From Clostridiaceae bacterium (lineage in GTDB: Bacteria; Bacillota; Clostridia; Acetivibrionales; DTU013): a DNA stretch of 46,874 nt. How positions within the stretch are numbered: position 1 is the stretch's first letter; each line of letters opens with the position of its first letter. The position numbers were made by a program, and so were the translations under genes. Below, piece after piece: positions 3,003-25,363 of the stretch. The notes under the pieces were generated by a model that ran no database searches, was not told the origin of the DNA, and worked only from the letters and a program-made list of their open reading frames with translations. The stretch is taken from contig JAAYPO010000122.1 of the NCBI GenBank assembly GCA_012519745.1, positions 1-46,874 on the forward strand, given 5' to 3'.

Positions 3003-3175
3003 AGAATTAAGCTCAGTAAGTTGTTACTAATCAATTACCCGATATTTGAGTTTGGAAACCGAATTTTTCCTTTTTCCCGCGGCATTGGAATGCAAATCCC
3101 TTGATAACCCTCGATCGTCAATCACATAGATGTGAAAGTGACAGTAATAAGAATCCAGAAATATTATTAAAACTA

Positions 3176-3204: not shown

Positions 3205-3235
3205 GACTTTACAAGAAACGATAAGGAGCATTATT

Positions 3236-3679
3236 ATGACTAAAGATTATTATACAGTAGAACAAATTTCAGAAATACTGAACATCCATCCAAAAACCAT
3301 TCAGCGTTACATCCGTGAGGGAAGACTGCCCGCGGTGAAGATCGGCAAGAGCTGGCGCATAACCGGCCATGATCTGAGCGTTTTTATCGAGGGTGAAGGC
3401 AGCATGGGATCGGCATCGAAAAAACGGACAACTCAAAGCACCATCGCATCTTCGGTTGTTGACATCAATGTAAACAGAAAACAGGATGCCATCCGTATCA
3501 TGAATACGCTTACAGCCTCATTGAATACCAAGCCGCCGGAATATGGGCGCTCATCCATGCAGACCCAATATATCGAGCGTGAAAACATGGTACGGGTCAC
3601 ATTGTGGGGCGACGTTCGCTTCATGGCAATAATGATGGACACGATTGCAGCATTAACAGAGCAAAATAATGAGGAGTGA
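3236..3679 (+). CDS. Excisionase/MerR-like HTH DNA-binding protein
   Basis: A 147-residue protein whose first 52 residues form an HTH_17-type winged helix (YYTVEQISEILNIHPKTIQR, YIREGRLPAVKIGKSWRIT, DLSVFIEG). A short linker leads to a roughly 70-residue C-terminal domain (INVNRKQDAIRIMNTL to FMAIMMDTIAAL) that I do not recognise and that may bind a ligand or dimerise. ATG at 3236 is chosen because AAGGAG precedes it and because it lies downstream of the consensus promoter; longer in-frame readings start before the promoter. It is coupled to the hydrolase gene four bases downstream, and probably regulates it. Confidence 0.87.
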   Translation: MTKDYYTVEQISEILNIHPKTIQRYIREGRLPAVKIGKSWRITGHDLSVFIEGEGSMGSASKKRTTQSTIASSVVDINVNRKQDAIRIMNTLTASLNTKPPEYGRSSMQTQYIERENMVRVTLWGDVRFMAIMMDTIAALTEQNNEE

Positions 3680-3683
3680 TCGC

Positions 3684-4514: not shown

Positions 4515-4563
4515 ACGCCCAACTTGCATAAGCAAGTCGGCCTGTTTGAAAAAACCGACATGT

Positions 4564-4592
4564 AAAAAAGGCGTCATATCTGACGCCTTTTT
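4564..4592. terminator. Bidirectional Rho-independent terminator
   Basis: Stem GGCGTCA / TGACGCC with a 4-base loop, A6 on the left and T5 on the right, sits between the convergent hydrolase gene (ends 4514) and the 431-residue protein gene (ends 4627). It can serve both strands. Confidence 0.92.
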
Positions 4593-4626
4593 GCATGCAC
4601 TAGTGAAGGTAATGGCGCTAGACACA

Positions 4627-5922
4627 TCAGTCAGACAGGTCGTGCCTGGCGCCCAGCTTATCCAAAAGGGACTTTTTCCAGCTTTCCACAGAGCGGTGGA
4701 TCACTCTGCCAATGAACCGCTTGCGCAGCTCCTGGATAGCAGGTGTCCTCATTTTCAGCATGCGCTGGTCCGAGTTTGCTTCTTCTTTTAATGCTTCATC
4801 CGAAAGAGAGAATATCTCCCGCCGCATTTGAGTCGCTTCCATTCCACGGTTCAGGAGCATCAGGAAGCCATCCCACCCAGGGCCCGCCCGGAACAGATAT
4901 GTTGCCGCATCCTCACCTGGTATAGAAAACTCCACCACTGCTGTCTTGCCATCTTTGGACGGGATCGCCATCCAGATAGCCCAGCGCAGTGCATCTTCCT
5001 GTTCAGCCGTCAATTCTGCAGCCCCGCCGTCATTCTCGCCCGTGCCCGCGCTCAGATTTGCATCTGCATTTTCATTGAGCTTTTCGATCTCAGCCTGTTT
5101 CAATGCTTCAAACTCCTCATCCGGCAGACATTTGATGCCAACTGCAAGATGCTCGTGATCACATATCTCTTTTAACTGCTCATATGTCGGAGCCGCCTTG
5201 CTGTTCCTTGCCTTTTTTTCTATAGCTCCTGTCAGCGTCACAGGCAGCTGCTTCAACTGGACAGCGATCCCCTCCCGCAGCAATGCTCCGGCTTTGGTGA
5301 CTTCCGAAAACCCAAGGGATGGTACCAGCTTTTTTACAAAGGCAATATCATTGTTCCTTAGCTCTCGTACTCGTTGAGTGATCGCTCCTTCCAGCAGATC
5401 AGAATCAGATCCCAGCATTGAGAAAGAATAGGCTTCATCAGCGTTCAACATGATCGTCAGCGTGTAATTTTCTCTTTTTATACCGTTTATGAACGCAAAA
5501 GGTATACGCCTTGCTCTCAGATTCGGCGACAGGATACAAAGGCAGTCCGAAAACACACCGATTTTCCCATTCCCGTTCAAAACCCCGTAAGAGTATTGTC
5601 CCTCGGTTTCCAGCACCGGCGCTCCGGTTACATAAAATGCAGACAAAACCTTTCTGTTGTATGCGTCCAGCAGATCGCGGTGAAACCACCGGCAGGTCTG
5701 GCCCATTTGTGAAATGACTATGGTTTCACCATTCGTTCTTATTTGTACGGCATGATTCTCAAATGTGATAAAATCCATATCGGCATAGGCGACAGAAACC
5801 CGGTCAAACAAACCGTCAAGGGTAAGTCCGTCAGCACAGATCAGCAGCTTTGCCTCACCCGATAATCGTGAGGAAGAAACCATTGCGTTATAATCAAAAT
5901 CCACGACAGTCTCGTTATCCAT
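4627..5922 (-). CDS. Conserved-looking protein of unknown function
   Basis: A 431-residue soluble protein that I do not recognise. It has no signal peptide or membrane helix. The first 200 residues are beta-rich with two similar halves (a strand-rich block near 20-75 and another near 110-165, each with short polar turns), reminiscent of paired PH-like domains. A Glu/Lys-rich helical linker follows (about 240-300), and a C-terminal block near 300-380 has TAEQEDALRWAIWMA and GRVIHRSVESW. AGAAGGAGG seven bases before the ATG supports the start. It is a single gene that shares the terminator at 4564-4592; the gene upstream is cheB on the same strand, 148 bp away. Confidence 0.8.
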   Translation of the reverse strand: MDNETVVDFDYNAMVSSSRLSGEAKLLICADGLTLDGLFDRVSVAYADMDFITFENHAVQIRTNGETIVISQMGQTCRWFHRDLLDAYNRKVLSAFYVTGAPVLETEGQYSYGVLNGNGKIGVFSDCLCILSPNLRARRIPFAFINGIKRENYTLTIMLNADEAYSFSMLGSDSDLLEGAITQRVRELRNNDIAFVKKLVPSLGFSEVTKAGALLREGIAVQLKQLPVTLTGAIEKKARNSKAAPTYEQLKEICDHEHLAVGIKCLPDEEFEALKQAEIEKLNENADANLSAGTGENDGGAAELTAEQEDALRWAIWMAIPSKDGKTAVVEFSIPGEDAATYLFRAGPGWDGFLMLLNRGMEATQMRREIFSLSDEALKEEANSDQRMLKMRTPAIQELRKRFIGRVIHRSVESWKKSLLDKLGARHDLSD

Positions 5923-11379: not shown

Positions 11380-12797
11380 GTGTTGTGTCTGGAACGAAAT
11401 ATTTTCACTATCCCAACCAAAGCCAGTGACGCCATTATACAAAGCAGGCTGACATTCACTGCAGGATTGGACACAAGCAGCCATTCCAAACTGCTGTCGT
11501 ATATGAGAGGCACCAAAACGATCCAAAGTATTGGAATCACTAAGAAAATGAATAATGCAATTTTGCTTTTGATTTTTCGCCGGAGCATGAACACTGAAAA
11601 AAGAACAAGTCCCGCGAGCAGGCAAATCAGTAGGATCATGATGGAATAATCATATGTCACATCGGCCGCTTCAGGGAATTTACCCTCCGTCAGGTACTCC
11701 AGAATATCCTCCGCCATACTCCATGGAGTGGGAGCATTTTTTTGAAGATTCATTTGATTAAATGAATTTGTAAGCACTACAATACCATATCCGGAATCGG
11801 TATCCAACAGGATTGACGAAGAATACCCCGGCAGAGAACCGTTGTGAGTGAAGCGCATACCCGGCTTGCGATCGATTTTCGTCCAGTATATATCGTAATA
11901 CACATCAGATCCTGAAGACTGCCGGCCGGAACCTTCATTCCCGCTGATCAGCGAGACCTCGTCAGTTCGACCGCCCTGCTGATAACAGACCATAAAGCGG
12001 CAAAGATCCTCTGTCGTCGAAAGGAAACCTCCGGCAGGTGAATCTCCGGCAGAAATACGGTATGATACAGAAACTGCCGCCCCGTAAAACGGTATATGCC
12101 CTTTTATATGATTTCCGTCCTCAAGACCCGCGGCATTTGGGAAGGTGCGTTCCATGCGGAGCGGTTCAAGTATTTCTTCATTTACATAATCCTCAAACGA
12201 ACATCCTGACACGACCTCAGCAATCCTCCCAAGGAATATGTAATTCAGGTTGGAGTATTCATATGCAGTCCCGGGTCTGTGGTTCAGCTTCAGGTTCGCA
12301 GACTTTTTTACGATATCAGCCAGTGAGTATCCGGCTTTATAGATGTACGGCATACCGCCGTCGATCGCTGAAATGCCGCTTGTATGCCTGATCAGCTGTC
12401 CGATCGTAACAGAGGCATCATTACCCTGATAGCTGGCGTGGAAGTCCGGCAGATACTGGTCAACATGTGCATCTTCTTTCAGTTTGCCATCATTTATCAA
12501 TTGCCTGACAGCCAGTGCTGTAAACATCTTACTCAGCGAACCGATGGGATAAATACTCTCCCCGCTGTCCGGCGATCTTCCATAATCCTGCAGGTAAACT
12601 GCTTCTCCATGCCTGACTATTCCTATCGACACATTCGGGATTCCAGCCTGCTTCATTGAAGCTTCCAAATATGCGTCGATATCCCCGGTGTATCCATCGA
12701 TATCCCCGGTCTGCAGTCCGACTGCATACGAGTCGGCGCTGCCCGTCAGTAACAGTGCGCATACGAGCACTGCAAGAATATACTTTTTCATAATCAT
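11376..12797 (-). CDS. Beta-lactamase-fold serine hydrolase with C-terminal membrane domain
   Basis: A 473-residue class C beta-lactamase/DD-peptidase-like protein (Beta-lactamase Pfam family). A signal peptide ends near residue 25 (LLLTGSADSYA). Catalytic SxxK is Ser87-Lys90 (GSLSK) and YxN is Tyr181-Asn183 (YSN), with RHTSG near 137-141. The last 90 residues carry about three membrane helices and a basic tail. It probably acts on D-amino-acid peptides or esters outside the cell; true beta-lactamase action is doubtful. The ATG at 12797 is preceded by a weak AAAAGG; an ATG two codons on is equally possible. A 21-bp duplication near the N-terminus gives GDIDGYTGDIDAY. Confidence 0.88.
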   Translation of the reverse strand: MIMKKYILAVLVCALLLTGSADSYAVGLQTGDIDGYTGDIDAYLEASMKQAGIPNVSIGIVRHGEAVYLQDYGRSPDSGESIYPIGSLSKMFTALAVRQLINDGKLKEDAHVDQYLPDFHASYQGNDASVTIGQLIRHTSGISAIDGGMPYIYKAGYSLADIVKKSANLKLNHRPGTAYEYSNLNYIFLGRIAEVVSGCSFEDYVNEEILEPLRMERTFPNAAGLEDGNHIKGHIPFYGAAVSVSYRISAGDSPAGGFLSTTEDLCRFMVCYQQGGRTDEVSLISGNEGSGRQSSGSDVYYDIYWTKIDRKPGMRFTHNGSLPGYSSSILLDTDSGYGIVVLTNSFNQMNLQKNAPTPWSMAEDILEYLTEGKFPEAADVTYDYSIMILLICLLAGLVLFSVFMLRRKIKSKIALFIFLVIPILWIVLVPLIYDSSLEWLLVSNPAVNVSLLCIMASLALVGIVKIFRSRHNT

Positions 12798-12986
12798 TTC
12801 TGCCTTTTACACTATTTGCACGGATATACGATAATCCACATCAGAAGTCTTCATTATTTATTTATAAGTAAACCCTTTGCAACTCCCGGTACCTTGCATG
12901 ACATCAGACACCTGGACATTTATGTGCCAACAGGTGCCCAACTGACGCGTCTGGCTCCTCGTTATGATGCATCGTTATATCGTTCG

Positions 12987-13844
12987 CTATATTGTCCACT
13001 GGTTGTTTATCAGTCCGGTCAGCTTCCAACTGCCGTCGTGTTTCTGAAATACCAGTCTGAGGCTTCTCCAGTCCAATCCTTCGTATTGTGGATCGATTTG
13101 CGGAAAATAGTACTCAACAATTATTGCGCCCTTGTATATTTCAAATTGGTTCTCCAGCATGTTTCCAAAGCTCAAAACCTCATTATATCCAACCTCCGGA
13201 GCATTGACATAGTCCGCGGTGTATATGAATCTTTCGTAATATTCCTTAGTAGTTAACCTGATCTCTTCCCCCGAGCCGTCGTAATAACCCCAATGATAAA
13301 CATTCCCGTCATTCAGGAAGCTTTTTATCTCATTTTTGCTGAAGACAAGATCGCTTTCAACGTAAACAAAAGTGTATGGAGTGAATCTTACGCCCAAATC
13401 AGGGTGTGCATATTCCGATACTGTATCGAAGTCTTTCTCCGCTATTGCCCGAAGAACCAGGTCTGCGGTTTCTGCGATGATATTCTTCGCATCCTCAGGC
13501 GCGATAAGGCTATCCTCAGGTTCGGCCATATCCTCGTCCTGCGGATTATTTTCCTCAGATCCGGCCATGCCTTCGTCCTCTGAGCCGTTATCGTCAGGCG
13601 CATTCACATCGCTTCCATCAATGCCTCCCGACTGCTGTGAGCTGTTTCCGTCAGATGTTTTGGTACTGTCGCCTGCATTGTCTTGCGACAGCTTCGGACT
13701 GCTCTCACCGTCTTTGTCAGATGCCGTGACCTGCCCATCCGGCTCCTGCTCCTGTTTGTTTCTCATTACTACAGAAAAGGCAATTACTGATACACAAACT
13801 AATATTACAGCTAATGCAATGATCACTACTGATTTATTCTTCAA
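12987..13844 (-). CDS. Membrane-anchored protein with NTF2-like C-terminal domain
   Basis: A 285-residue protein that I do not recognise by name. Residues 5-27 are an uncleaved signal anchor. Residues about 30-115 are a low-complexity acidic, Ser/Gly/Asp-rich spacer (SEDEGMAGSEENNPQDEDMA). Residues about 118-285 form a compact domain with the look of NTF2/SnoaL-like proteins: a helix with ETADLVLRAIAEKDFDTVSEYAHPD in two parts, then strands ending LRLVFQKHDGSWKLTGLINNQWTI in two parts. Such domains often bind ligands or cell-wall parts extracellularly. It stands alone between the hydrolase gene and the ABC permease. Confidence 0.75.
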   Translation of the reverse strand: MKNKSVVIIALAVILVCVSVIAFSVVMRNKQEQEPDGQVTASDKDGESSPKLSQDNAGDSTKTSDGNSSQQSGGIDGSDVNAPDDNGSEDEGMAGSEENNPQDEDMAEPEDSLIAPEDAKNIIAETADLVLRAIAEKDFDTVSEYAHPDLGVRFTPYTFVYVESDLVFSKNEIKSFLNDGNVYHWGYYDGSGEEIRLTTKEYYERFIYTADYVNAPEVGYNEVLSFGNMLENQFEIYKGAIIVEYYFPQIDPQYEGLDWRSLRLVFQKHDGSWKLTGLINNQWTI

Positions 13845-13934
13845 TCGGCAGCCTCCCTGTACACATTTTCAATATATATAAATCTTATCCTGCATCGCTG
13901 CAAAAAACAATAGCAAAAAACCTGGGAGTCCCAC

Positions 13935-14651
13935 TCACTCAAGACGAATTCTCAGCAGCTTATATACATTGAGAAAAATCGATACCAGCAGAATAACAAT
14001 GAGCGGTATCAATAGCTTAATGTCAAACACCTCACCGGACATGAGTTTGAACCCCCATGTTGCAGGCAAAATCATTCCGGCATACTCTAGCATGCTGGGG
14101 AGCATGCTGACAGGAAACATGATCCCCGACAGCATTATAGAGGGCAGGAATAGTAATTGGGACATTATTGTAAGCTTTGATGAGCTTTTGACATACAGTC
14201 CGAATATCGTTCCCACCATCAAGCTGACTATGATGAAAATCGCCAGCGATATAAAATTAACAGCCGGGTTGGCAGGACTTTTTGCATCAAATGCCGCCGG
14301 TGATACAAAAAATATCACAAGGCTCATCATGAAAATATGGATGAAGGCAGCGCTGAAGTTGTTGATCAGCGCCGCCCATAGGGGTATTCCGCCAACACGA
14401 TATGCCTTTTTGATGTCACTTCCCAACAGCTCCACCAAGGGTGCAGGTGCTCCAAGAAAGGCTGCCATCGTCACGCCGAATACTGTCATGGTCTGGATCA
14501 GTGTATCCCTTGCCTCAGGGTTGATCGATGAGAAGATCCCGCCCATAAAGGCAAAGAACATGAGGGGCACGCCGTAATATGTCAAAAGTACACCTTTGTT
14601 TCTGATATCAAGCTTCCATTGCAGGGCTATCCCATATAAAAGCGCGCTCAT
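13935..14651 (-). CDS. ABC-2 type exporter permease
   Basis: A 238-residue integral membrane protein with about six hydrophobic helices (for example VPLMFFAFMGGIF, FIHIFMMSLVIFFV, FISLAIFIIVSLMVGTIF). The ABC-2 signature region is LLFLPSIMLSGIMFPVSMLP near 165-185. It pairs with the ATPase gene upstream, with which it overlaps by 4 bp (ATGA-type coupling). The pair resembles drug or peptide exporters of the ABC-2 class; the substrate is unknown. The permease looks intact although its ATPase gene is frameshifted. Confidence 0.9.
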   Translation of the reverse strand: MSALLYGIALQWKLDIRNKGVLLTYYGVPLMFFAFMGGIFSSINPEARDTLIQTMTVFGVTMAAFLGAPAPLVELLGSDIKKAYRVGGIPLWAALINNFSAAFIHIFMMSLVIFFVSPAAFDAKSPANPAVNFISLAIFIIVSLMVGTIFGLYVKSSSKLTIMSQLLFLPSIMLSGIMFPVSMLPSMLEYAGMILPATWGFKLMSGEVFDIKLLIPLIVILLVSIFLNVYKLLRIRLE

Positions 14652-15479
14652 AATACCGCCTCCCTTGCTATGTCGATAAATCTCTGTTCAAGTGTGGCCT
14701 TCTCGATCTTAACATCAAGAACGGTATTGCCTGACTCATTACAGATCTTAAGAAGCTCAAGCAATGTGTCCCCGATATTTGCAGAGGTGAATACCCAGTA
14801 TCCCTGCTCACAGTCAGCATTTTGTATCGGCCTCTCAGTTTTGATATGTATGCGGCTGTGCCCCGGCATTTTACTGGTCAGTTCGTCTACTGCCCCATTG
14901 AAAGCGATCTTTCCATCTCTGAGTATGGCGATCCTGTCGCACAGGCTCTCTACCTCGGCCATGTCATGGCTTGCCATGATGATCGTTTTCCCCCGGGCTT
15001 TCAGTTGGCGTATTTGTGTATGAAGGGAAATACGGCCTTCTACATCAAGCCCCGCAGTCGGTTCGTCCAGAAACAGCAGGTCTGGATCGCCAATAAGCGC
15101 CAGCGCCAGATGCAGACGCCTTTTCTGTCCTGTGGACATCTCCCTGTACTGCTTGTTTTTCAGATGCGCAAGGTCAAAAGCATTAAAAGACTTCTGTATC
15201 CTTCCACAGGCAAAACAGCTTATATGCCTCTATCGCCCTGATGTTTGAAGGAAGCGATGAAGATTGGAGCTGCACACCTATCCTGCCGTTTATTGTGATC
15301 TTCCCGCTGTCATACCTGCGGATGCCCTCGATGCATTCAAGGGTAGTAGTCTTGCCGGCTCCGTTAGTACCAAGCAAAGCAAATATTTCACCACATTTTA
15401 CAGAGAAGGAAATATTCTTTATCACTGTGTTCGTTCCGTAGCTTTTTGTCAGGTTTTCTATTCTAAGAGCCTCACTCAT
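14648..15479 (-). pseudogene. ABC-2 exporter ATPase, interrupted by a frameshift
   Basis: Two adjacent frames make one ABC ATPase. The first (15479-15183) has Walker A GTNGAGKTT and the Q-loop region (GVQLQSS). The second has the signature MSTGQKRR, Walker B LLFLDEPTAGLD and the switch His region (MASHDM), and runs to 14648. Removing one T from the TTTT run at 15185-15188 (AAAA on the plus strand) joins EVF to NAFDLAHLKNKQYREMSTGQ without a gap. The single-base insertion is therefore clear; it may be a true mutation, a sequencing error, or a slippage site, since UUU followed by UAA can slip +1 onto UUU. GGAGGG precedes the ATG at 15479. Confidence 0.85.
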
Positions 15480-15714
15480 CCCTCGGTCCCTCCTTGCCCG
15501 GAATTATAGTGCCCGTCTTTTGAACAATCTCACCTGCCGTCATTAGCTCTTTGTTTCGCATAATAACTCACCTCTGCTTTAAGTTTACTACATGACGAAG
15601 CGTAACAAGTAATATTTTCTTGTAGACGGTTTTTTATTTCCCGATGTCAAAGCACGAGCAAGTGAACGTAGAGAGGGAGGCAAAGGGACCATCCCCTGCT
15701 TCCCCTGTATTTGT

Positions 15715-16902
15715 CTATAGAAAGGCAACATCGATATAAAGCCTTTTTCCGGAGAATGTCTCATACACTTTTTTATCATGCTCAAAGTCAACGATATAGC
15801 AGCTGCTGTCATAATGGATGTGTCTGGTTTTTTCAAAATATGACCTGAGAGGATGACTTTCATGTAAACCGATCATAATAAAATCGAATTCCCTTGCGTC
15901 CTGTCTCATGAATTGCCACAGCCTGCGGGCAAGGATCGAGTCATCATTCTCCGCCCACAAACCTGCACATGCGCAGTTGGCGGCTTCATTTATGCGGGGG
16001 AAGGATGGGTAGCCCAGCAGCCTCGTAGGCAGCTTGCTTATCAGCTTGTATATACCGCTATAGTTTTTTATTACATACTGCTTATAATGCTGTTGATTCA
16101 ACACATATCCGCATGCCGCCAGGGCGTCATCTTTGTATAAGCCATAAAAAACAGCATTCTTCAGATCATATGCCGATACGCTTTCCAGAGAAAGGTCCAT
16201 TTCCGGCGCATGTCGGGCAAAAAAAGTCTCCGCTTCATCTCTGCTGCAGCGCCTGGCAAAATATTGGGACCCCGCCTTCGAGCTTTTGTATAGATTCATG
16301 CCGCCTCTGAAAATGCTGGCCTCCGATTTTCCGATTCCTAAAGCCTCGATATCTGATTTTCTTTTTCCTAAAGCCTCGATATCTGATCCTCCACTTCCGA
16401 AGGCCTTGATCCCTGATTTACAGAAAAAGACTCTATAATCCCCCAGATACTCATATAAGGGCATGAGCTTCCTTGGCTTTTCAAGCATCTTCTGCACGGC
16501 TGTGTTTTCCTTTAGAATGGTGGTGAAATAAAAGTCAACATGATCCCGGGTATGTTCATAAAGTTTTTGATATGCATAGGGAATCAACATCACCTTTTTC
16601 CGATACTCGGGCAATAGCTTGAGACCGGTCAAATACCCCATGTTTACGATTTTACCGTCTTTGAAAACCTTTTTGATGATGCAGGCGCCAAATCCGGCAG
16701 CCTTGTTGGTCTGCCTGTCCCTTAGCATAAGAATGACTGCCCTGTCACCTTCCCGCTCAAACGAAGCAATGGGGTCAGGATCCCTCAAATACTGCACAGC
16801 GATCCCTCCGTCAAATTCCCCGTTGTCATAGATCTCCTTAATATCCGGCCAGTCGCTGCGCCGCGCCGGAACAAGCTCAAATCTGTCATTTGGGGAGCTC
16901 AT
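15715..16902 (-). CDS. GNAT-like acyltransferase (two-domain)
   Basis: A 395-residue protein. The N-terminal third (about 8-150) fits a GNAT acetyltransferase: FELVPARRSDWPDIKEIYDN, AAGFGACIIKKV, MGYLTGLKLLPEYRKK, and an acyl-CoA loop region near 115. The C-terminal half, after a 10-residue tandem repeat, has a second degenerate GNAT-like look (LAACGYVLNQQ, FDFIMIGLHESHPLR). The start at 16902 is preceded by GGGAGGAAT and overlaps the radical SAM gene by 17 bp, which argues for coupled expression. The acyl donor and acceptor are unknown. It is the last gene of the radical SAM/GH3 cluster. Confidence 0.72.
   Translation of the reverse strand: MSSPNDRFELVPARRSDWPDIKEIYDNGEFDGGIAVQYLRDPDPIASFEREGDRAVILMLRDRQTNKAAGFGACIIKKVFKDGKIVNMGYLTGLKLLPEYRKKVMLIPYAYQKLYEHTRDHVDFYFTTILKENTAVQKMLEKPRKLMPLYEYLGDYRVFFCKSGIKAFGSGGSDIEALGKRKSDIEALGIGKSEASIFRGGMNLYKSSKAGSQYFARRCSRDEAETFFARHAPEMDLSLESVSAYDLKNAVFYGLYKDDALAACGYVLNQQHYKQYVIKNYSGIYKLISKLPTRLLGYPSFPRINEAANCACAGLWAENDDSILARRLWQFMRQDAREFDFIMIGLHESHPLRSYFEKTRHIHYDSSCYIVDFEHDKKVYETFSGKRLYIDVAFL
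16318..16420 (-). repeat. In-frame 30-bp tandem repeat in the GNAT-like gene
   Basis: Three to four copies with a 30-base period (common core CCTAAAGCCTCGATATCTGA on the plus strand) encode KSDIEALG-type 10-residue units between the two halves of the protein. The last copy has diverged. It lies in a linker and may vary in copy number. Confidence 0.85.
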
Positions 16903-18217
16903 CCAGATTCCTCCCAACAGGCACATTCATTTTTTCGTCCACTTCTCCGCCGATGCTCAGATTCATTGCCCAGAACAAAAACCACAGAAGCGGGCTCGTC
17001 CTTCCCATGGCCGAAAGCCCTCTCCGAAGTATGTTCTTGGCACCGGAAAACTCCTTCCTGGCATCCCGGCAAAGCCTGCTGAGCCTTTCCGGAGACATGT
17101 TCTTCGGCAGGAAGGCCAGCTGGCCATAGTTGTAATCCTCCGCAAGCCACCATTTCTCAGTCAGCAGCCTGTTTTCCTGCTTCAGGCGCTCATATAAGCC
17201 GGTTCCCGGGAAGGGCAGCAGATGGTTGAAGGCGGCGGTATAGAACCTGTGCTTCTCTGAAAAACGAAGTGCATTTTCAATGGTCTGCTCCGTATCATGA
17301 TCATACCCGAATATGAAGGTAGCATAAATGCCTATGCCCGCTGCATGGATGCGCTTTACCAGCTCATCCCTCTCCTTTATATTCAGATTTACCGCTTTAT
17401 TCATCTGTTTCAGATTTTCCTCTTCAAGGCTTTCAAAGCCAATCAGTATGATCTCGCAGCCGCTGTCCTTCATGGCCTTCAGCAGTACCTCATCCTTAGC
17501 CATGCTGAGGGTGCCCTGTCCCGCCCACTTTATCTTCAGCGGCCTGATTTTTTCAAAAAGCTCCATTGCATTCCGTTTGTCCGCTATCAGATTGTCATCC
17601 ACCAGGAAATGATACTTATGCTCGGAGCGCTGGATGTCCTTCAGAATGTGTTCATGGGGCCGGGCATGATATTTGCAGCCGTAATAGCCTGCTATGGAAC
17701 AAAAATCACAATGGTTACAGCAGCCCCTGCCTGTCTCGATCAAGGAAACAGGCATATATTTCTTCCCGGCATAAATGGACTTGTCAGGCAGCAATGGGCT
17801 GTATACAGCCTCGCCGTCGTAATGCTTCTTCAGTTCACCTCTTTGGAAATCCTTCAGCATGGTTTGCCAAACCGCTTCGGCATTACCTGTAACGATCGCA
17901 TCTGCATGCTGCAAAGCTTCATCAGGCATCATGGTCACATGATAACCTCCAAGGACGACCTTGGCTCCTCTTTCCCTGAAAGCCCTGCTTATCGCATAGC
18001 TGCGTGCTGCCGTATACGTTTCGACAACTATCGCCACAAGGTCTGTCGGAGCATCATAATCGATAAGCTCTATCCTGTCATCATAAAAAGCTGTCTCCAC
18101 ATCCTCCGGCGTCAGGCTTTTCAGCACAGCGATGGTCAACGGCTCCATTTTCCAAGTTCCTATATATTTCTGTCCCGGCTTCTTTCCTATTGCCGGCAAT
18201 ATAAATGTCAGTTTCAT
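16886..18217 (-). CDS. B12-binding-type radical SAM protein A
   Basis: A 443-residue protein. Residues 1-145 form a B12-binding-like Rossmann domain (LTFILPAIG, FYDDRIELID, VVLGGYHVTMMPDEAL, AIVTGNAEAVW) without the DxHxxG histidine. The radical SAM core follows, with the cluster motif C166-x3-C170-x2-C173 (GCCNHCDFC), FLVDDN and LIGFESL. The C-terminal part has FNHLLPFPGTGLYERL and a WWL segment, as in the class that includes HpnP-like proteins. Members use 5'-deoxyadenosyl radical chemistry, often with methylcobalamin, for methylation, ring formation or C-C coupling. The start is ATG 18217, behind AAGGAG. It lies 77 bp after paralogue B and overlaps the GNAT-like gene. Confidence 0.93.
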   Translation of the reverse strand: MKLTFILPAIGKKPGQKYIGTWKMEPLTIAVLKSLTPEDVETAFYDDRIELIDYDAPTDLVAIVVETYTAARSYAISRAFRERGAKVVLGGYHVTMMPDEALQHADAIVTGNAEAVWQTMLKDFQRGELKKHYDGEAVYSPLLPDKSIYAGKKYMPVSLIETGRGCCNHCDFCSIAGYYGCKYHARPHEHILKDIQRSEHKYHFLVDDNLIADKRNAMELFEKIRPLKIKWAGQGTLSMAKDEVLLKAMKDSGCEIILIGFESLEEENLKQMNKAVNLNIKERDELVKRIHAAGIGIYATFIFGYDHDTEQTIENALRFSEKHRFYTAAFNHLLPFPGTGLYERLKQENRLLTEKWWLAEDYNYGQLAFLPKNMSPERLSRLCRDARKEFSGAKNILRRGLSAMGRTSPLLWFLFWAMNLSIGGEVDEKMNVPVGRNLDELPK

Positions 18218-18294
18218 CGTATTTCTCCTTGTATGACACATCGTTTTTCACCAGCCTGTGAAGGCGCCGGTATCGTTTAGCCAGAAGCAGTTCC

Positions 18295-19638
18295 TTACCG
18301 GGCTGCAGCCGGCAGTGGAATGTCCGAGTCGTCGCACATAATGTCCCTTGTAAAGTGCAAAAACCTATCTGCGTATTTCTTGTACCCCATATTCAGAGGA
18401 ATCGACAGCCATGGGCTGTGAATAAAGGGTGCCAGCCTTGCTGCAATATCCTTCGCGCTATAGGTATGCTTCCATGCCCATACGATCCCCTCTTCCAGCT
18501 CCTCCACACTCATTTTGGCCGGTTTGAACACACAATGCTCAACATCATACATCGCCCAGTTGCGCTCAATGATCCGCCCTGCCTTATCCAACTCTCTATA
18601 TAGCTGGGTGTTGGGAAACGGAGTAAGGATACTGTATCTGGGCAAATCAATTTTTATTTTTGTGATCATCTCCGCGGTCTGCTCAAAAACCGACCTGTCC
18701 TCATCATCCCCTCCGAAGGCAAAGCACCCCTGCACCAGTATGCCATGTGCATGGAGCCTTTTCATCAGTTCTCCATAGCTCTCGACATGGTTTACTCCTT
18801 TATTGATATATTTCTGAGATGACTGCCAGATAGATTCGAAACCAATAAGAAGTCCTTTGCAGCCGCTCTTCTCAAATAGGGATATCAGTTCCTCGTCCAC
18901 CCCTATGTGCGAGGTGACAAGCCCGAGCCAAATTATTTTCAGCGGGATGAGCGCAGTAAAAAGCTCGATGGCATACGCCCTGTCCGCAATCAGATTAACA
19001 TCGGGAAATATAATAATTTTTGCATTAAGCGCCTCGATTTCCCTTACGACTTCATCAACAGGACGTTTGTACACCGTGCTGCCAAATGCCGCCGGATAGG
19101 CGCAAAAGGTGCACGGAAAGCTGCAGCCTCTAACTGCCTCGACTGTATTGACCGTAATGTAGCCTTTTTTATTGAGAAGCTCTCTTCTCGGGATCGGTCT
19201 GTTTGCTATCGTATAATCACAGCCCTGATGATAAAAGGGTTTCAGCTCTCCTTGCGCAAAATCCCTGAGCATCTGTGGGAATGTATGCTCCGAAAATCCG
19301 GTCATAACAGCATCCGCATGGCCGGCAGCCTCCTGAGGCATCAGCGTAGGGTGCACTCCCCCGAGAACCACCTTTATTCCCCTGCTGCGGAAATAGTCCG
19401 CATAGGCGTAGCACCTGGGAGCTGTACCTGTAATGCAGGTGATCCCTATTATATCCGCCTCCAGATCCAGTGGTATGTTTCCTGCAGTCTCATCATAAAT
19501 GACCACCTCCGCATTAAGCTCATCAGGCACAAGTGCAGCCAGGGTAGTCAATGTGAGCGGCGCGTAATGAAGAGATTTTCCGAAACTTCCGTTGTACCTG
19601 TGCATTGCTCCAGCCGGAGCCAATAATGCAATTTTCAT
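18295..19638 (-). CDS. B12-binding-type radical SAM protein B
   Basis: A 447-residue paralogue in the cluster. The B12-type domain has KIALLAPAGAMHRYNG, VIYDETAGNIP and VVLGGVHPTLMPQEAA; the cluster motif is GCSFPCTFC near residues 172-180 (CX3CX2C); FPDVNLIAD and LIGFESIWQ follow. It is the most divergent of the four: it has SFGKSLHYAPLTLTTLAAL at the N-terminus, where the others have a MEPL-type motif, and lacks the WWL segment, with NWAMYDVEH instead. The start is ATG 19638 behind AAGGCGGG. A 322-bp gap upstream suggests that B, A and the GNAT-like gene form their own transcription unit. Confidence 0.93.
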   Translation of the reverse strand: MKIALLAPAGAMHRYNGSFGKSLHYAPLTLTTLAALVPDELNAEVVIYDETAGNIPLDLEADIIGITCITGTAPRCYAYADYFRSRGIKVVLGGVHPTLMPQEAAGHADAVMTGFSEHTFPQMLRDFAQGELKPFYHQGCDYTIANRPIPRRELLNKKGYITVNTVEAVRGCSFPCTFCAYPAAFGSTVYKRPVDEVVREIEALNAKIIIFPDVNLIADRAYAIELFTALIPLKIIWLGLVTSHIGVDEELISLFEKSGCKGLLIGFESIWQSSQKYINKGVNHVESYGELMKRLHAHGILVQGCFAFGGDDEDRSVFEQTAEMITKIKIDLPRYSILTPFPNTQLYRELDKAGRIIERNWAMYDVEHCVFKPAKMSVEELEEGIVWAWKHTYSAKDIAARLAPFIHSPWLSIPLNMGYKKYADRFLHFTRDIMCDDSDIPLPAAAR

Positions 19639-19960
19639 ATGGATTTACCCGCCTTTACAGTATTGTGTCAGTCTTTGGTTACTTTCACGTCACTTCAGGA
19701 GACATTTGCCTACTTTCATGCTTCTTCTGGAGGCTGTCTGTTCAAAATTTCAACTTTGATATGTTATTTCCCAAATACCAGTTAACATATTACATTGAAG
19801 CGCCAAATTATGTTACCATTTTATGGTTAATTATCATATTTATTTCCCAAATTCATAACTTACTTGCATTTTTGCACACTGTACTGCCGAGTCGATGGCA
19901 GCCAGCCTGCTAATCGGACTGTCTGATTCGGGACAATGGCAGCTGGTGTGCATGAATTGC
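19639..19960. other. AT-rich intergenic region with a 13-bp direct repeat
   Basis: This 322-bp gap splits the radical SAM cluster into two parts. It has no gene. A 13-bp direct repeat (TTATTTCCCAAAT, at 19764-19776 and 19840-19852) lies in AT-rich DNA, and one copy is embedded in an imperfect palindrome with ATGTTA and TAACAT ends. These could be operator sites for the downstream unit. No clean sigma-A promoter was identified. Confidence 0.45.
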
Positions 19961-21514
19961 TTATTGCACTGCCTGATCAGCCAAACAGCCCGTGAAATAC
20001 TTGTCCCAGTCCTCCCTTGCCGAAAGCCATGCCGGCTTGATGTCTCCCAGCTTCTGACCCGCAGCCAGGCAGCCATCCACATATTCCTTCTTCGGATCAC
20101 CCGTCAGTACAAATATCTGCAGCTCCTTCAGCTGCCCCAGCTTTCTGCAGTAATCATAATGAAAGCTTTCTCTCAACGCATTGTCAATCTCTTCGCCGGA
20201 TGGAGGCGTATCGCTTTTTATATACAGAACATAACGGTCTTTACGGGGAGCAAGCAAATAAAACTCCGCTTCCGGGGCAAGCCTCTCCACAGTCTCCCTG
20301 ACAAAGGCTTCATGAAGCTTTTCACCGAACATGTCGCTGATCCTGTCATTCTTTCCTTTAAAAACAAGCAGCGGCAAACTCTTTCTCCACCCGACCACCT
20401 TAACTATATCATAAGTACGGCAGCGATAAAAACCCCCGCCTGTGGTCACCACCACCTCATATTCCTTCCCTGTTTCAAGTTCATTGACAAGACGAACATT
20501 CCTTGTATTGATATCAATGAATTCAAAAAAATGCGAGTAGACACTCAGGACCCCTCCGTCTTCCCCTGCCAAAGGGAAGGAAACAAAGCTTTCTGTAGAC
20601 AGCAGGCCCTTGGGCTGAATTATGCATTGCGGAAACAGGCTTGCCACTCTATCGGCATAAGCGGCTGCATATGCATCACACCAGCAGCTTATGACCTTAA
20701 GCCCCGGCCATATTTTGTCATAAGTCTTGCTGTAAACAGCCTGCCGGATCTCCTCACGCCTCTTTCGGATTAATTCATCAAGCAATCGTTCCTTGTGTCC
20801 ATCCAGATAATCCAAAAGGAGCAGCAGGTAGGTGGGATTCCACACAGAAATCAAAGTAAGCTCCTTTGTCTTCAGAAGTTCGACAACCGTCCTGGTATAA
20901 AACCTCTCCATGTCGGTTTCTTTGCCGATGTCACCAGGGCGGGCAAAAATCCTGTCCATCAGGTATTTTTCCAGTCTGCCGAAGTAGTCGGAATCCTCCT
21001 CAAAGCCGATCGGTATACCGCTTTTGGTATACTTCTTCCCGCTTGTTGCCGGTGTGATGGACCAATAGCTTTTTCCCCACCTGATTTCGGGATATGAAGT
21101 ATACAGATCATATATCCATGGCTTTATGCCCCTCTGGAATTCTTCCTTCAGGGATTTTGTATAAGGAATGAGCTTGGCTGCTTTCGTCGAACCGCTTGTG
21201 GGCTCGAAGGTGATGATTTTCTCCGCAGTCAGCAGACTTTCTTCCTTCTGCGCCAGTTGCTCTATATAAGGCCTGTAGGTTTCATAATCCGACAGCGGCA
21301 CCTTTTGCTGATAAGCTTTTATGCCGTCAATTCCTTCGAACCCATATTTTCTGCCGTAGGCCGTGTCCTTATTTTTGGACAAAATCTCCTTCAGCCTGTC
21401 CTCCTGTACCTCCATCGCGGACGTTACAGCGGCAAACTTCATGTATTCCTTCTTGTAAAGCTGACAGCATATTGTGTTGACAAGACAACAGAAAATTGCT
21501 TTTGGATCCCTCAT
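19961..21514 (-). CDS. GH3-family acyl-adenylating enzyme
   Basis: A 517-residue protein with the GH3 (auxin-responsive promoter family) pattern: N-terminal helix region with NKDTAYGRKYGF, the adenylate-binding loop EPTSGSTKAAKLIPYT near residue 108-123, AVYSKTYDKIWPGLKVISCW, and TTGGGFYRCRTYDIVKVVGW near 355. GH3 enzymes adenylate carboxylic acids and transfer the acyl group to amino acids; bacterial members are poorly known. It sits in the middle of the radical SAM cluster, 36 bp after GNAT-like B. The likely role is to activate the acid made or modified by the radical SAM enzymes, or to attach it to an amine. The substrate is unknown. Confidence 0.92.
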   Translation of the reverse strand: MRDPKAIFCCLVNTICCQLYKKEYMKFAAVTSAMEVQEDRLKEILSKNKDTAYGRKYGFEGIDGIKAYQQKVPLSDYETYRPYIEQLAQKEESLLTAEKIITFEPTSGSTKAAKLIPYTKSLKEEFQRGIKPWIYDLYTSYPEIRWGKSYWSITPATSGKKYTKSGIPIGFEEDSDYFGRLEKYLMDRIFARPGDIGKETDMERFYTRTVVELLKTKELTLISVWNPTYLLLLLDYLDGHKERLLDELIRKRREEIRQAVYSKTYDKIWPGLKVISCWCDAYAAAYADRVASLFPQCIIQPKGLLSTESFVSFPLAGEDGGVLSVYSHFFEFIDINTRNVRLVNELETGKEYEVVVTTGGGFYRCRTYDIVKVVGWRKSLPLLVFKGKNDRISDMFGEKLHEAFVRETVERLAPEAEFYLLAPRKDRYVLYIKSDTPPSGEEIDNALRESFHYDYCRKLGQLKELQIFVLTGDPKKEYVDGCLAAGQKLGDIKPAWLSAREDWDKYFTGCLADQAVQ

Positions 21515-21550
21515 AACAGCACCGGCCTTTACCTTAGCTTTCGGGCGGCT

Positions 21551-22255
21551 TCATTCAAATAAAAGCCTCCGCATCCTGGCAGACAGATTCGACATGCTGA
21601 GCTTTGTGACGCATACCAGATCGTTGCCTTTTATGTATCCTGGATTTCTTTCCACAAAGAAGGCGATATTTTTATCCTTCAGCCGCTCCTTGCTCACATC
21701 CGCCACATTTTCCTTCAGCTTGTCCTTGACTCCCCTGTAACAAAGGACCCCCGTCCTTTCATCGTACTCCTCCGGGCTGTAGAATCTGCCGAAGGCATCG
21801 ATTATATCCTTGATCCTCCCGGGAGTTTCTTCCTTATAGTTTGGATAAAAGGATTTGTAGAAGGTCGGCAGTATCCTGTAGGTTTTGTAGCCCTTGCAGA
21901 TTAGGAACCAGTAAAAATCCCCGTATTGCTCCTCATATTTGAAAAAGGACCTCGCAAAAATCTTGAATAGCTCCGCACTGCCCCAATAGTCCTTATGGAT
22001 GATCGTATCTCCTGAAAAAACTCCATGGATAAGCTCGCCGCCCAACGGTATGTGCATGATGTGCTGTGTGGAAAAACCCCGTATTATGCCGTCGTCATCA
22101 CGCAGCACGATGGAAAAGTCCTTCTTGTTCAGATCATTCAGGAAGTTTTCCCGCGTCATATTGTCATAAAAGGTATCCATCAGCTCATACATCGTCTCTA
22201 TATCTTCATGTCTCAGCGCATTAATCTCTTCCAGGCTTCCCGTCAGCTTTACCAT
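21551..22255 (-). CDS. GNAT-like protein
   Basis: A 234-residue protein with a weak acetyltransferase look: INALRHEDIETMYELMDTFY at the start, FSIVLRDDDGIIRGFSTQH, HGVFSGDTIIHKDYWGS near 85-100 and FKIFARSFFKYEEQ. The glycine-rich acyl-CoA loop is not obvious, so enzyme action is uncertain. ATG 22255 is preferred because GGAGGG lies eight bases ahead; an ATG 12 codons upstream lacks such a site. It lies between radical SAM C and the GH3 gene, so it is probably part of the same pathway. Confidence 0.65.
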   Translation of the reverse strand: MVKLTGSLEEINALRHEDIETMYELMDTFYDNMTRENFLNDLNKKDFSIVLRDDDGIIRGFSTQHIMHIPLGGELIHGVFSGDTIIHKDYWGSAELFKIFARSFFKYEEQYGDFYWFLICKGYKTYRILPTFYKSFYPNYKEETPGRIKDIIDAFGRFYSPEEYDERTGVLCYRGVKDKLKENVADVSKERLKDKNIAFFVERNPGYIKGNDLVCVTKLSMSNLSARMRRLLFE

Positions 22256-22285
22256 TGATGCAATCCCTCCATATTCAAAATGAGG

Positions 22286-22357
22286 CTTCACGCACTCAGT
22301 CTATCCACACATGAATCATGTCTTCGCGCACTCGGTCTGTCCTCACATATCACTGCT
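22286..22357. repeat. 36-bp imperfect tandem duplication between genes
   Basis: Two copies, starting at 22286 and 22322, share CTTC-CGCACTC-GTCT-TCC-CACAT with a few substitutions. They fill part of the 155-bp gap between radical SAM C and the GNAT-like gene. No function can be assigned. Confidence 0.7.
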
Positions 22358-22410
22358 GTCGGCACCGACATCAGGCATTCTCCGGCTTCCCTCCGATGCG
22401 AATCAGACAC

Positions 22411-23781
22411 TTACCGGCACTGGACGTCCTCCGTCTCCTTGCTCTTCTCTGTCAATCCAAAGCGCATCCCCTGCTTCTTGAATACTTCCTTCCTGAAAAG
22501 CGGATTGTACAACAGGTATGTGAAGAAGCGATACAGGCTGCGCATGTTGGTCCTCGGCTCCAACGCCCTGGAAAAAACGGACCATGGCGAGTTGAATGTC
22601 TTCCGGCACCAGAAGGACACCTCCGTCAGCTCTTCAGGCGACATGTTCCTGGGGACAAAAGCCGCATGATTGAAGCGGTACTCCTCATGGAGCCACCATT
22701 TGCCCCCATACAGCAGCCGCCCCTCCTTTTCCAGCTTGTCATACAATGGTGTGCCCGGATAAGGCATGAGTATGTTGAATGCTGCAAAGCAGAACTTGTT
22801 CCGGATGGCGAACCGGCAGGTTTCGATGATGCTCTCTTTGGTATCCCCGTCATATCCCAGGGTAAAGGCAGCCCAGGTCTGAAGCCCCCATTCCCGCAGT
22901 TCCCTTATTTCTTTCTCATAGTGATCCAGGGCCTTCCTCCTGTTTGCGCCCTTTGCCGCAGCCGTCAGATTCTCCTCATTTATGGATTCAAACCCAATGA
23001 CCAGCCCCAGACACCCGCTCCTGACCATAAGCTCCATCAGTTCCCTGTCCTCGAGCATATCCATGCATCCCTGACTGACCCACTTCACCTTCAGGGGAAT
23101 AAGTGCCCGAAAAAGCTCTTTGGCTTTGTCAAAATCCGAAACTATGTTATCATCTACAAAAAACAGCAGCTTCCGCTTTTGGCTCCTGATCTCCTCAACG
23201 ACCTCATCGACCTCCCTGCAATATTGCCTCCCCTTGAAGTATGCGCTGGAAGCACAGAAATTACAGTGGTATTTGCAGCCTCTCGAAAACTGCAGCAAAG
23301 TTATCGGCAGATAACCTTTCCCTTCGAATACATCCCTTCTGGTGATAACTCCCTTTTGCGGCACCAGAGGCTGTACAGCCCGGTACTCCCGCTTCAGTTC
23401 ATTGCACGAAAAATCCAGCAGCATCTCCTGCCATACATCCTCCGCGTCCCCGATCAAAACAGCATCCGCATGCTCCTTTATCTCATCAGGTATCAGCATC
23501 GCATGCATACCGCCCATCACAACAGGCACGCCCCGTTTTCTATATTCCCCGCCGATCTCATAGGCCCGCCTTGCCGTAAAGGTCTCCACCGTGATGGCAA
23601 CCAGATCGGCAGGCTCATCATATGGTATTTTTTCCATGCGGTCATCATACATGACCACCTCGATATCCTTCGGGGTCAATGCTGCCAGGATGCCAAGCTG
23701 CAAAGGCTCCATACGGCCCTCGTCAACGTACAGGCTATGCTCTCTCCTGCCTATATTGGGTTTTATCAAAACCAGCTTCAT
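22411..23781 (-). CDS. B12-binding-type radical SAM protein C
   Basis: A 456-residue protein of the same family as A and D. The B12-type domain has LVLIKPNIGRREHS, GRMEPLQLGILAALTP and MYDDRMEKI; VVMGGMHAMLIPDEI follows. The radical SAM motif is GCKYHCNFC (CX3CX2C) near residue 170, with FFVDDNIV and LVIGFESI. The C-terminal domain has FNILMPYPGTPLYDKL and KWWLHEEYRFNHAAFVPRNM. The start is ATG 23781 behind AGGAGATATG; the first 47 bases overlap the end of gene D, so the two are translationally linked. The reaction is unknown. Confidence 0.94.
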   Translation of the reverse strand: MKLVLIKPNIGRREHSLYVDEGRMEPLQLGILAALTPKDIEVVMYDDRMEKIPYDEPADLVAITVETFTARRAYEIGGEYRKRGVPVVMGGMHAMLIPDEIKEHADAVLIGDAEDVWQEMLLDFSCNELKREYRAVQPLVPQKGVITRRDVFEGKGYLPITLLQFSRGCKYHCNFCASSAYFKGRQYCREVDEVVEEIRSQKRKLLFFVDDNIVSDFDKAKELFRALIPLKVKWVSQGCMDMLEDRELMELMVRSGCLGLVIGFESINEENLTAAAKGANRRKALDHYEKEIRELREWGLQTWAAFTLGYDGDTKESIIETCRFAIRNKFCFAAFNILMPYPGTPLYDKLEKEGRLLYGGKWWLHEEYRFNHAAFVPRNMSPEELTEVSFWCRKTFNSPWSVFSRALEPRTNMRSLYRFFTYLLYNPLFRKEVFKKQGMRFGLTEKSKETEDVQCR

Positions 23782-25087
23782 TCGACATATCTCCTAAAGG
23801 TCTTCCCTGTTTTCTGTGAATCTCTCTGTTGGATATAATGTTCATCGCCATAAACAGAAAAAAGCTGTAGGGCTTCAGATGTATACCACCGGTAAATAGA
23901 CGCTTCAATATGCTGCGTGCCCCGTAAAATCTGTAACGGATCGACCTGCAGCCGTCCCTCAATTCCTCGGGGGACAGCTGTCTGGGGCGGAAGACGGCAT
24001 CTCCATAGCGGTAGACCTCACTCAGCCACCATTTATCATAAATCAACCGGCCCTCCTGCTCAAGTCTTTTATAAAGAGGCGTTCCCGGCATGGGAGTCAG
24101 CGGATTGAAATTTGCGACAGTGAAATTATGCTTCATTGCAAAACTCAAAACCTCATCAAAGCTCTCTTTAGTATCCTGGTCATAGCCCAGTACGAAGGCG
24201 GCATAAATAAGCAGACCATGCTTGTAAACATTATCAATTGCTCTGTCATATCCGCCCACAGCGATGTTTGCAGATTTGTTCATCTGCTCCAGGTTCTTTT
24301 TGTTAAGGGATTCGAAACCCATCATGACCATAATGCAGCCGCTTTCCTTCATCATCGCCAGGAGCCTGTCGTTCAGGGCAGCATCCATACTGATCTGGCA
24401 GCCCCATTTTTTCTTCAGCGGCTTCAGCTCCCTGCAAAGGCTTATGGCAGCCTCTTCGTCCGTCAGCAGATTATCATCTATGAATAATATTGTCTTCTCT
24501 TTTGCCGCCTTCACCTCTTCGATGACCCGGCCGATTTCCGCCCGGCGGACCTTTCCGGGATACATGGCCCTGATCGAGCAGAAATCGCAGCAGAACCTGC
24601 AGCCCCGCGAAAACTGTACCTGTCCGATGCGCTTGTACCTCTTTCCCCTGAAGGCTGGATGCTCCATATCGATCGGTGCAAAATCCGAACTCTGCTCTGA
24701 AGTATACAACGAACTGACCCTGCCGTTTATGGCATCCTCTATGAATCTGGGCCAGGTATCCTCCGCATCCCCTGCGATGATCACATCCCCGTATGCCATG
24801 GCTTCTTCCGGAAGCAGGCTTACATGAAAGCCTCCCAGCGCAATGATGTTATCCTCCGTTTTATGCTTTTTTGCAAGCTGATATGCCCTTCTTGCAGCAT
24901 ATGTATCGAATGAAAGCGCTATGATATCTGATGTCAGTGTCTGCGGCAGCTTCTCGACACGGTCGTCCAGAAACTCCATCTCTATCCCTTCAGGAGTCAA
25001 ATGGGCCAATATAGGAAAAATAAGAGGTTTCAAAGCATCATTGCACTTGCCTTCAGACATGTTTACTTTAATGACTGTTACTTTCAT
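23735..25087 (-). CDS. B12-binding-type radical SAM protein D
   Basis: A 450-residue paralogue and first gene of the cluster. The N-terminal domain has VTVIKVNMSEGKCND and EFLDDRVEKLPQTL; IIALGGFHVSLLPEEAM and AGDAEDTWPRF follow. The radical SAM motif is GCRFCCDFC near residue 170 (CX3CX2C), then LFIDDNLLTD and MMGFESLNKKN. The C-terminus has FNPLTPMPGTPLYKRL and KWWLSEVYRYGDAVFRP. The start ATG 25087 follows GGGAG. Upstream lie two 18-bp direct repeats and a hairpin (25149-25240) that may control the whole cluster. Confidence 0.94.
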   Translation of the reverse strand: MKVTVIKVNMSEGKCNDALKPLIFPILAHLTPEGIEMEFLDDRVEKLPQTLTSDIIALSFDTYAARRAYQLAKKHKTEDNIIALGGFHVSLLPEEAMAYGDVIIAGDAEDTWPRFIEDAINGRVSSLYTSEQSSDFAPIDMEHPAFRGKRYKRIGQVQFSRGCRFCCDFCSIRAMYPGKVRRAEIGRVIEEVKAAKEKTILFIDDNLLTDEEAAISLCRELKPLKKKWGCQISMDAALNDRLLAMMKESGCIMVMMGFESLNKKNLEQMNKSANIAVGGYDRAIDNVYKHGLLIYAAFVLGYDQDTKESFDEVLSFAMKHNFTVANFNPLTPMPGTPLYKRLEQEGRLIYDKWWLSEVYRYGDAVFRPRQLSPEELRDGCRSIRYRFYGARSILKRLFTGGIHLKPYSFFLFMAMNIISNREIHRKQGRPLGDMSNEAGFDKTQYRQERA

Positions 25088-25148
25088 TCGCTGCTCCCTT
25101 CATCCTATGCCGCCGGATAAGCCATAACAATGGTTTCTGCCGCATACA

Positions 25149-25188
25149 CTAAACCCTCGGATGGTTAATGCTAAACGACCCGATGGTT
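25149..25188. promoter_or_regulatory. Paired 18-bp direct repeats upstream of the radical SAM cluster
   Basis: Two sites of the form CTAAAC-N5-GATGGTT (25149-25166 and 25171-25188) are spaced exactly 22 bp, two helical turns, apart and lie 62 bp before gene D. Such spacing is typical of dimer-binding regulators. The regulator is unknown. Confidence 0.55.
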
Positions 25189-25215
25189 CAAAAAGCTGAA
25201 CGCCCGGTGACATAA

Positions 25216-25240
25216 AAGATACCTTACGATGAGGTATCTT
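25216..25240. other. Hairpin in the divergent intergenic region
   Basis: A perfect 9-bp inverted repeat, AAGATACCT / AGGTATCTT with a 7-base loop, lies between radical SAM D and the alpha-galactosidase gene. On the minus strand it is followed by TTATG rather than a T run, so it may be an operator or leader structure rather than a terminator. Confidence 0.6.
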
Positions 25241-25320
25241 CATTGTCTATATTATCAGATTCTCTTTATGCAATCTACTATTGATACAATGGCGCCTGCC
25301 CCCTCTGTTTTTTTGCCGGA

Positions 25321-25331
25321 TATGGTATAAT
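25321..25331 (+). promoter_or_regulatory. Extended -10 promoter of the alpha-galactosidase gene
   Basis: TATGGTATAAT combines an extended -10 (TATGG) with a consensus TATAAT at 25326-25331. No good -35 is present, as usual for this class. The start codon is 33 bases downstream. Confidence 0.75.
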
Positions 25332-25363
25332 ATGTACATATTGCAGATAACAGGAGGAAGGGT

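Follow-up and report, generated by a model that had tools for sequence, protein, structure and literature searches.

A GNAT-GH3 gene core accompanied by radical SAM genes recurs in Bacillota and Pseudomonadota and may direct the synthesis of an amide-linked metabolite

GH3 enzymes use ATP to activate a carboxylate, which they then transfer to an amine. In planctomycetes one such enzyme, OlsH, adenylates a fatty acid and couples it to the amino acid ornithine, giving N-acyl-ornithine (lyso-ornithine lipid) in an ATP-dependent reaction (PMC12493201). The clusters for ladderanes and polyunsaturated hydrocarbons of anammox bacteria and Desulfotalea contain B12-type radical SAM enzymes, which have been proposed to carry out O2-free acyl-chain cyclisation or oxidative cascades (PMC2649909). 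The locus described here brings the two enzyme families together. It is a seven-gene operon on contig JAAYPO010000122.1 of the Clostridiaceae bacterium assembly GCA_012519745.1 (positions 1 to 46,874 of the forward strand; this whole stretch of 46,874 nucleotides is referred to as the window), and encodes a GH3 enzyme, two GNAT-fold proteins (GNAT1 and GNAT2) and four radical SAM proteins (rSAM_A to rSAM_D). A core of GNAT1, GH3 and GNAT2 is found repeatedly in Bacillota and Pseudomonadota; in anaerobic lineages and in one enterobacterial plasmid, orthologous radical SAM genes (C, D and often A and B) accompany it. We place at about one half the probability that the locus is a mobile cluster, spread across phyla, for an amide-linked and probably lipidic metabolite, the chain of which would be tailored by radical SAM enzymes in anaerobes or by O2 chemistry in aerobes.

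The genes are located on the minus strand (25087-15715) in the transcription order rSAM_A, rSAM_B, GNAT1, GH3, rSAM_C, rSAM_D, GNAT2. The radical SAM labels run opposite to those of a first-pass annotation of the same DNA, so that rSAM_A, B, C and D correspond to its D, C, B and A. That annotation had described seven genes on one strand with overlaps of 47 bp and 17 bp, and all seven open reading frames (ORFs) are found as it stated. The first overlap (23735-23781) joins rSAM_A (23735-25087; 450 aa) to rSAM_B (22411-23781; 456 aa). The second joins rSAM_D (16886-18217; ORF opening at 18241, start assigned from homologues) to GNAT2 (15715-16902), and measures 41 bp from the first ATG of the GNAT2 ORF, which opens at 16926, or the 17 bp given earlier from the second ATG at 16902, the start backed by homologues. 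GNAT1 (21551-22255) has an ORF opening with GTG at 22291 and a homologue-based start at the ATG at 22255; GH3 (19961-21514) encodes 517 aa and rSAM_C (18295-19638) 447 aa. No acyl carrier protein, precursor peptide, polyketide synthase (PKS) or nonribosomal peptide synthetase (NRPS) gene is seen within the operon, in agreement with the earlier description for the last three.

Conserved neighbourhoods indicate that these genes belong together. Operons of GNAT1, GH3 and radical SAM genes are present in seven other Bacillota genomes from several classes, and GNAT1 and GH3 co-occur in all close GNAT1 homologues. A search with GNAT1 finds matches in 3 of the 391 genomes of a class sample, each with the cluster; in a phylum sample of 398 genomes the cluster accompanies five of six matches, the sixth being fragmentary and marginal. 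The order A-B-GNAT1-GH3-C-D of the window is retained in L069/L002 (genome G697) up to the contig end, and L035 (G369) shows A-B-GNAT1-GH3-C. Two loci, L034 (G136) and L070 (G623), share GNAT1-GH3-C-D-GNAT2, which in L086 (G786) follows an rSAM_C-like gene. In L071 (G547, from the same order as G786) a SPASM radical SAM gene and an rSAM_C-like gene precede GNAT1-GH3-C close to the contig end, and L072 (G503) is arranged as two radical SAM genes-GNAT2-GNAT1-GH3. An orthologue or close counterpart of rSAM_C is present in every locus found to bear radical SAM genes, and orthologues of rSAM_A are found in G697, G369 and a Citrobacter plasmid. In L070 a FecCD-type uptake system (580-4246; two permeases, an ATPase and a binding protein, for cobalamin or siderophore) lies about 4 kb upstream of the cluster.

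Sequence identities point to transfer of the operon. The window and G697, which belong to different classes, share 87.5% identity in rSAM_C, 85.6% in rSAM_B, 84.1% in rSAM_D and 77% in GH3, against 73.0% in RpoB, and it is this excess of the accessory enzymes over RpoB that suggests movement between lineages. The GH3 gene is absent from four other genomes of the window's genus.

The most complete version outside Bacillota is carried by an IncFIB/IncFII plasmid of Citrobacter portucalensis (NZ_CP134684.1), which has the full set in the permuted order GNAT1, GH3, C, D, GNAT2, A, B; its rSAM_B shares 59.5% identity with that of the window. Beyond rSAM_B lie genes for a PAP2 phosphatase and for a small protein, and then, in divergent orientation, a fifth radical SAM gene with a fatty-acid desaturase; GNAT1 through to the desaturase occupies 12004-24108 of this locus (L089). 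No near match of this cluster is found in E. coli genomes. On a Burkholderia arboris replicon GNAT1 adjoins GNAT2, followed by a fatty-acid desaturase, GH3 and a Rieske oxygenase, with a PAP2-desaturase fusion and a PF10118 protein on the opposite strand; tblastn with the seven cluster proteins detects no radical SAM gene in this 24.7-kb stretch. The Acinetobacter baumannii locus (HlyD/EmrA, EmrB, GNAT1, GH3, TolC, GNAT2) gives no radical SAM match either. GNAT2 has no match in the plasmids by plain tblastn, but a profile does find it in L087-L089, and the remote GNAT2s were confirmed by profile comparison (99.2% and 98.1% probability) and by hmmsearch. The core without radical SAM genes is represented by a single Burkholderia replicon and by the Acinetobacter locus, both from aerobes; the replacement of radical SAM enzymes by O2-dependent ones should accordingly be taken as a lead and not as a rule. 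Phage matches of GNAT1 were not accepted as phage genes, as the neighbours in the one record inspected are bacterial housekeeping genes. Distant GNAT1 relatives of about 23-25% identity also occur in Azospirillum (L090, L091 and L092), with no GH3 or radical SAM match nearby.

It might be argued that these are accessory genes that cluster loosely and share no pathway, since the full seven-gene set is not present in every relative and GNAT1 stands alone in L085 and in Azospirillum. However, the short overlaps, the content conserved across classes and phyla and the transfer as a unit make such a grouping hardly credible, and the conserved neighbourhoods contradict it; chance association is ruled out by an operon structure that persists across phyla. 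The gene-neighbourhood check proposed with the first-pass annotation thus bears out its view of a coherent set whose members occur together. Its impression of an undescribed cluster also stands, as no description of the seven-gene set was found in the open-access literature searched.

Family membership of the GH3 protein is unambiguous by Pfam, in support of the acid activation proposed earlier: PF03321 scores 155.7 bits and PF23571 58.5 bits against cut-offs of 23.6, and PF23572, at 23.5 bits, falls marginally under the same threshold. With the nucleotide-binding motifs I-III defined as in PMC12493201, the protein keeps motif I (TSGSTKAAKLIPYT), a motif II-like LLSTES (in the segment KGLLSTE) and an FGEKL segment. 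Family and ATP motif I are shared with the plant enzymes JAR1, GH3.12 and GH3.1, the solved GH3 relatives; however, the sequence similarity is remote and the window GH3 is found in a bacterial operon. In the GH3 tree the cluster proteins and two Omnitrophota relatives separate from other Clostridia/Bacteroides-type GH3s at 100/99, motif I being intact in the cluster set, and the 11 core GH3s stand alone on one side of a weakly supported branch (71/89). The Omnitrophota relatives come from a metagenome-assembled genome (L003), in which the two GH3 genes (466-2232 and 3745-5520) flank one gene that is PhzF-like by eye; this short contig contains no GNAT1 or radical SAM homologues. A further GH3 gene, on a plasmid of Streptomyces sp. 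SGAir0924 (L099, 9767-11437), is located within a type I polyketide cluster that also includes genes for a P450, an aminotransferase and an F420 oxidoreductase.

OlsH (NF052613), the nearest characterised relative, is the only NCBIfam model that the window GH3 matches, which invites the reading of an ornithine-lipid-type pathway. In it the GH3 protein would be an OlsH producing an N-acyl amino acid, a second acyl chain would come from a GNAT, and the radical SAM enzymes would be ordinary C-methylases of the chain. OlsH does make a lyso-ornithine lipid (PMC12493201), and an OlsB-like role is possible for GNAT-fold proteins. However, the score of 64.3 bits lies far under the equivalog cut-off of 620, and among the other cluster GH3s the model gives 42-73 bits or, in two cases, no match at all. 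Instead of the OlsI-like alpha/beta hydrolase of the OlsH/OlsI pathway, which is lacking, the operon has two GNATs and four radical SAM proteins; the methylase families score well under cut-off (HpnR, 44-63 bits against 650), and the split of the radical SAM proteins into four lines points to more than a single reaction. This identity is therefore improbable.

The radical SAM proteins had been described as four B12-type enzymes that keep the CX3CX2C motif and lack the DxHxxG histidine motif. Motif inspection agrees: the cysteine motif is present in all four (RGCRFCCDFC, RGCKYHCNFC, RGCSFPCTFC and RGCCNHCDFC), and DxHxxG in none. The radical SAM domain (PF04055) scores 51.9-59.2 bits in each, against a cut-off of 29.5. 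An N-terminal B12-binding-like domain precedes it; PF02310 matches all four, but only rSAM_A (34.4 bits) and rSAM_C (42.5 bits) exceed the cut-off of 32.1, with rSAM_B (28.6 bits) and rSAM_D (27.3 bits) below it. A GGxHxxxxP motif is found in this domain of all four proteins. The absence of DxHxxG does not settle cobalamin binding in the class of radical SAM enzymes with B12-binding domains, and the four are putative cobalamin-using enzymes.

None of the four reaches a curated NCBIfam cut-off (HpnJ, BchE, HpnR, TIGR04072, AprD4 and PhpK). HpnJ and BchE are the best or near-best models for all of them and share their domain order; however, their scores (88-106 bits for HpnJ, with a maximum of 105.8, and 75-90 bits for BchE) are far from the cut-offs of 577.6 and 481.35, and the operon contains no hopanoid or bacteriochlorophyll genes. 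The resemblance to the ladderane clusters is similarly partial: the cluster proteins match TIGR04072 weakly (51-74 bits against 360), FAS II genes are present there and absent from the window cluster, and GH3 or acetyltransferase partners are unmentioned in that work (PMC2649909). By sequence, the nearest solved structures are the radical SAM diol dehydratase AprD4 (PDB 6fd2; E 1.4e-16 for rSAM_C and 4.8e-18 for the profile) and 9ccb, followed more distantly by the Trp C2-methyltransferase, TokK and CysS. AprD4 is the closest of these to the set, but it belongs to an aminoglycoside pathway and its NCBIfam model gives 26-69 bits against 500. No chain of the tetraether synthase Tes appears among PDB matches at E<=0.001, a search that included no direct comparison with Tes. 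In a screen for anti-phage defence systems with PADLOC, only weak radical SAM matches to the candidate PDC-M51A were obtained (best 39.4 bits), and this identity was rejected.

Mutual identity among the four proteins is 30-40%, and in the tree they form separate clades that cross genera and include members from both phyla. The A and B clades take in Citrobacter proteins and G369, D groups loosely with G503_2 and Citro_2 (88/88), and C, together with its Citrobacter and G503 counterparts, is set apart from A, B and D. The division of labour among the four therefore predates the dispersal of the cluster, in keeping with four distinct reactions or sites and not with a recent duplication. The suggestion of four distinct enzymes is thus sustained, and the possibility, raised with it, that all four fall into one known methylase family is excluded by the four separate clades and by the failure of each to reach any equivalog cut-off.

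Neither GNAT1 nor GNAT2 has a match among Pfam or NCBIfam families, and their assignment relies on predicted folds, which concur with the two GNAT-like proteins noted earlier. The AlphaFold model of GNAT1 (predicted local distance difference test score, pLDDT, 89.6) is a single GNAT fold with GCN5 as best match (Z 12.5, rmsd 2.9, 156 residues aligned). GNAT2 is modelled with moderate confidence (pLDDT 66.7) as a tandem GNAT, and resembles tandem GNATs and N-myristoyltransferases with Z of about 18-20 over about 280-310 residues. On these models both are likely acyltransferases. At the canonical R/Q-x-x-G-x-G/A acyl-CoA loop the GNAT1 alignment has mostly (H/Q)(K/R)(D/E)YWG(S/N/G)xEL, with one invariant glycine. 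The GNAT2 gene of the window includes a 30-bp tandem repeat of 3.2 copies (16325-16419), which encodes an added linker (SDIEALG...) between the GNAT halves; its homologues have no such linker.

Comparison establishes which genes are present, their families, their recurrence together and their transfer; from gene content and context we infer substrates, step order, reactions, cobalamin use, product class and export. The GH3 enzyme would adenylate a carboxylic acid, for which a fatty or fatty-derived acyl chain is the likeliest candidate, and then form an amide with an amine such as an amino acid; the two GNAT-fold proteins may add or transfer further acyl groups. The radical SAM enzymes would functionalise unactivated C-H positions of the chain, through desaturation, C-C bond formation, hydroxyl removal or methylation, and may as a set do in anaerobes what the desaturase and Rieske enzymes adjoining the core do in Burkholderia. 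That the acid is an acyl chain is suggested by the desaturase and PAP2 genes next to the core in Citrobacter and Burkholderia. Together with the similarity to OlsH, these genes make a lipid or amide product more likely, which strengthens, still as a conditional statement, the earlier suggestion of a modified and perhaps membrane-lipid or amidated product.

A small amide of non-lipid nature is the alternative to be weighed here. In such a pathway GH3 would join, for example, an aromatic or amino-acid-derived acid to an amine, the radical SAM enzymes would modify an amino acid, a ring or a sugar-like portion, and the product would be an exported signal or antibiotic. The solved GH3 relatives are plant enzymes joining auxin, jasmonate or benzoates to amino acids, the nearest solved radical SAM relative comes from aminoglycoside synthesis, EmrAB-TolC-like efflux genes accompany the Acinetobacter version, and the Streptomyces plasmid GH3 resides in a polyketide cluster. 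Set against this are the fatty-acid desaturase and PAP2 genes that accompany the core in Citrobacter and Burkholderia, and the fact that the sole functional bacterial model matched, though weakly, is a lipid enzyme, OlsH; on balance the non-lipid amide seems somewhat unlikely.

Several observations nevertheless count against a lipidic amide. Aromatic acids and plant hormones are also activated by GH3 enzymes, and motif III of the window GH3 has diverged (YRCRTYD, within YRCRTYDIV, for YRYRLxD). The operon lacks genes for an acyl carrier protein, a fatty-acid synthase or an aminotransferase that could supply the acid or the amine. As read from alignments, both GNATs keep the acyl-CoA loop motif only in part, which makes the acyl donor uncertain. 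GNAT1 relatives without GH3 exist in L085 (G780; 33% GNAT1) and in Azospirillum, and the exchange with desaturase and Rieske enzymes draws on a single Burkholderia locus and a single Citrobacter plasmid. A stronger version of the lipidic amide proposal, in which rSAM_A to rSAM_D would be O2-independent desaturases or C-H functionalising enzymes that replace the membrane desaturases and Rieske oxygenase of aerobes, and the product a new class of polyunsaturated or remodelled N-acyl amide made under anoxia, is rather unlikely.

If the lipidic amide reading is right, the cluster would represent a widespread and horizontally mobile pathway that has been missed because it carries no PKS, NRPS or ribosomally synthesised and post-translationally modified peptide (RiPP) signature, and would combine a ligase of the plant-hormone type with as many as five radical SAM enzymes. 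With a shared core, the aerobic and anaerobic forms would then lend themselves to comparison, which could show the role of each radical SAM enzyme and address O2-free acyl-chain desaturation by such enzymes, a question open since the ladderane work. The Citrobacter plasmid copy would provide a route to the product in an ordinary laboratory host.

The divergent intergenic region upstream of rSAM_A (25088-25363) contains an 11-pair hairpin at 25216-25240; it has no Rfam match, and its promoter-like signals are not above chance. No cobalamin riboswitch from Rfam is detected in the window or in L034, L035, L069, L070 and L086. An ABC-2 transporter located 3' of the cluster (15479-13935, minus strand) was excluded as a member, as it does not adjoin the cluster at any of the other loci, and a frameshift or a sequencing error divides its ATPase between two frames (15479-15183 and 15139-14648). 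Elsewhere in the window, a c-di-GMP-I riboswitch (9331-9247, minus strand; 83.2 bits) lies upstream of an Hpt/CheR-like gene and a CheB-like protein at 8786-6071, both recognised by eye. On the same strand, 36491-33601 encodes exosortase K (TIGR04287, 122.9 bits against a cut-off of 55) adjoining a VIT/VWA-like protein that resembles the marine sortase target (TIGR03788, 450 bits, under the cut-off of 551.65).

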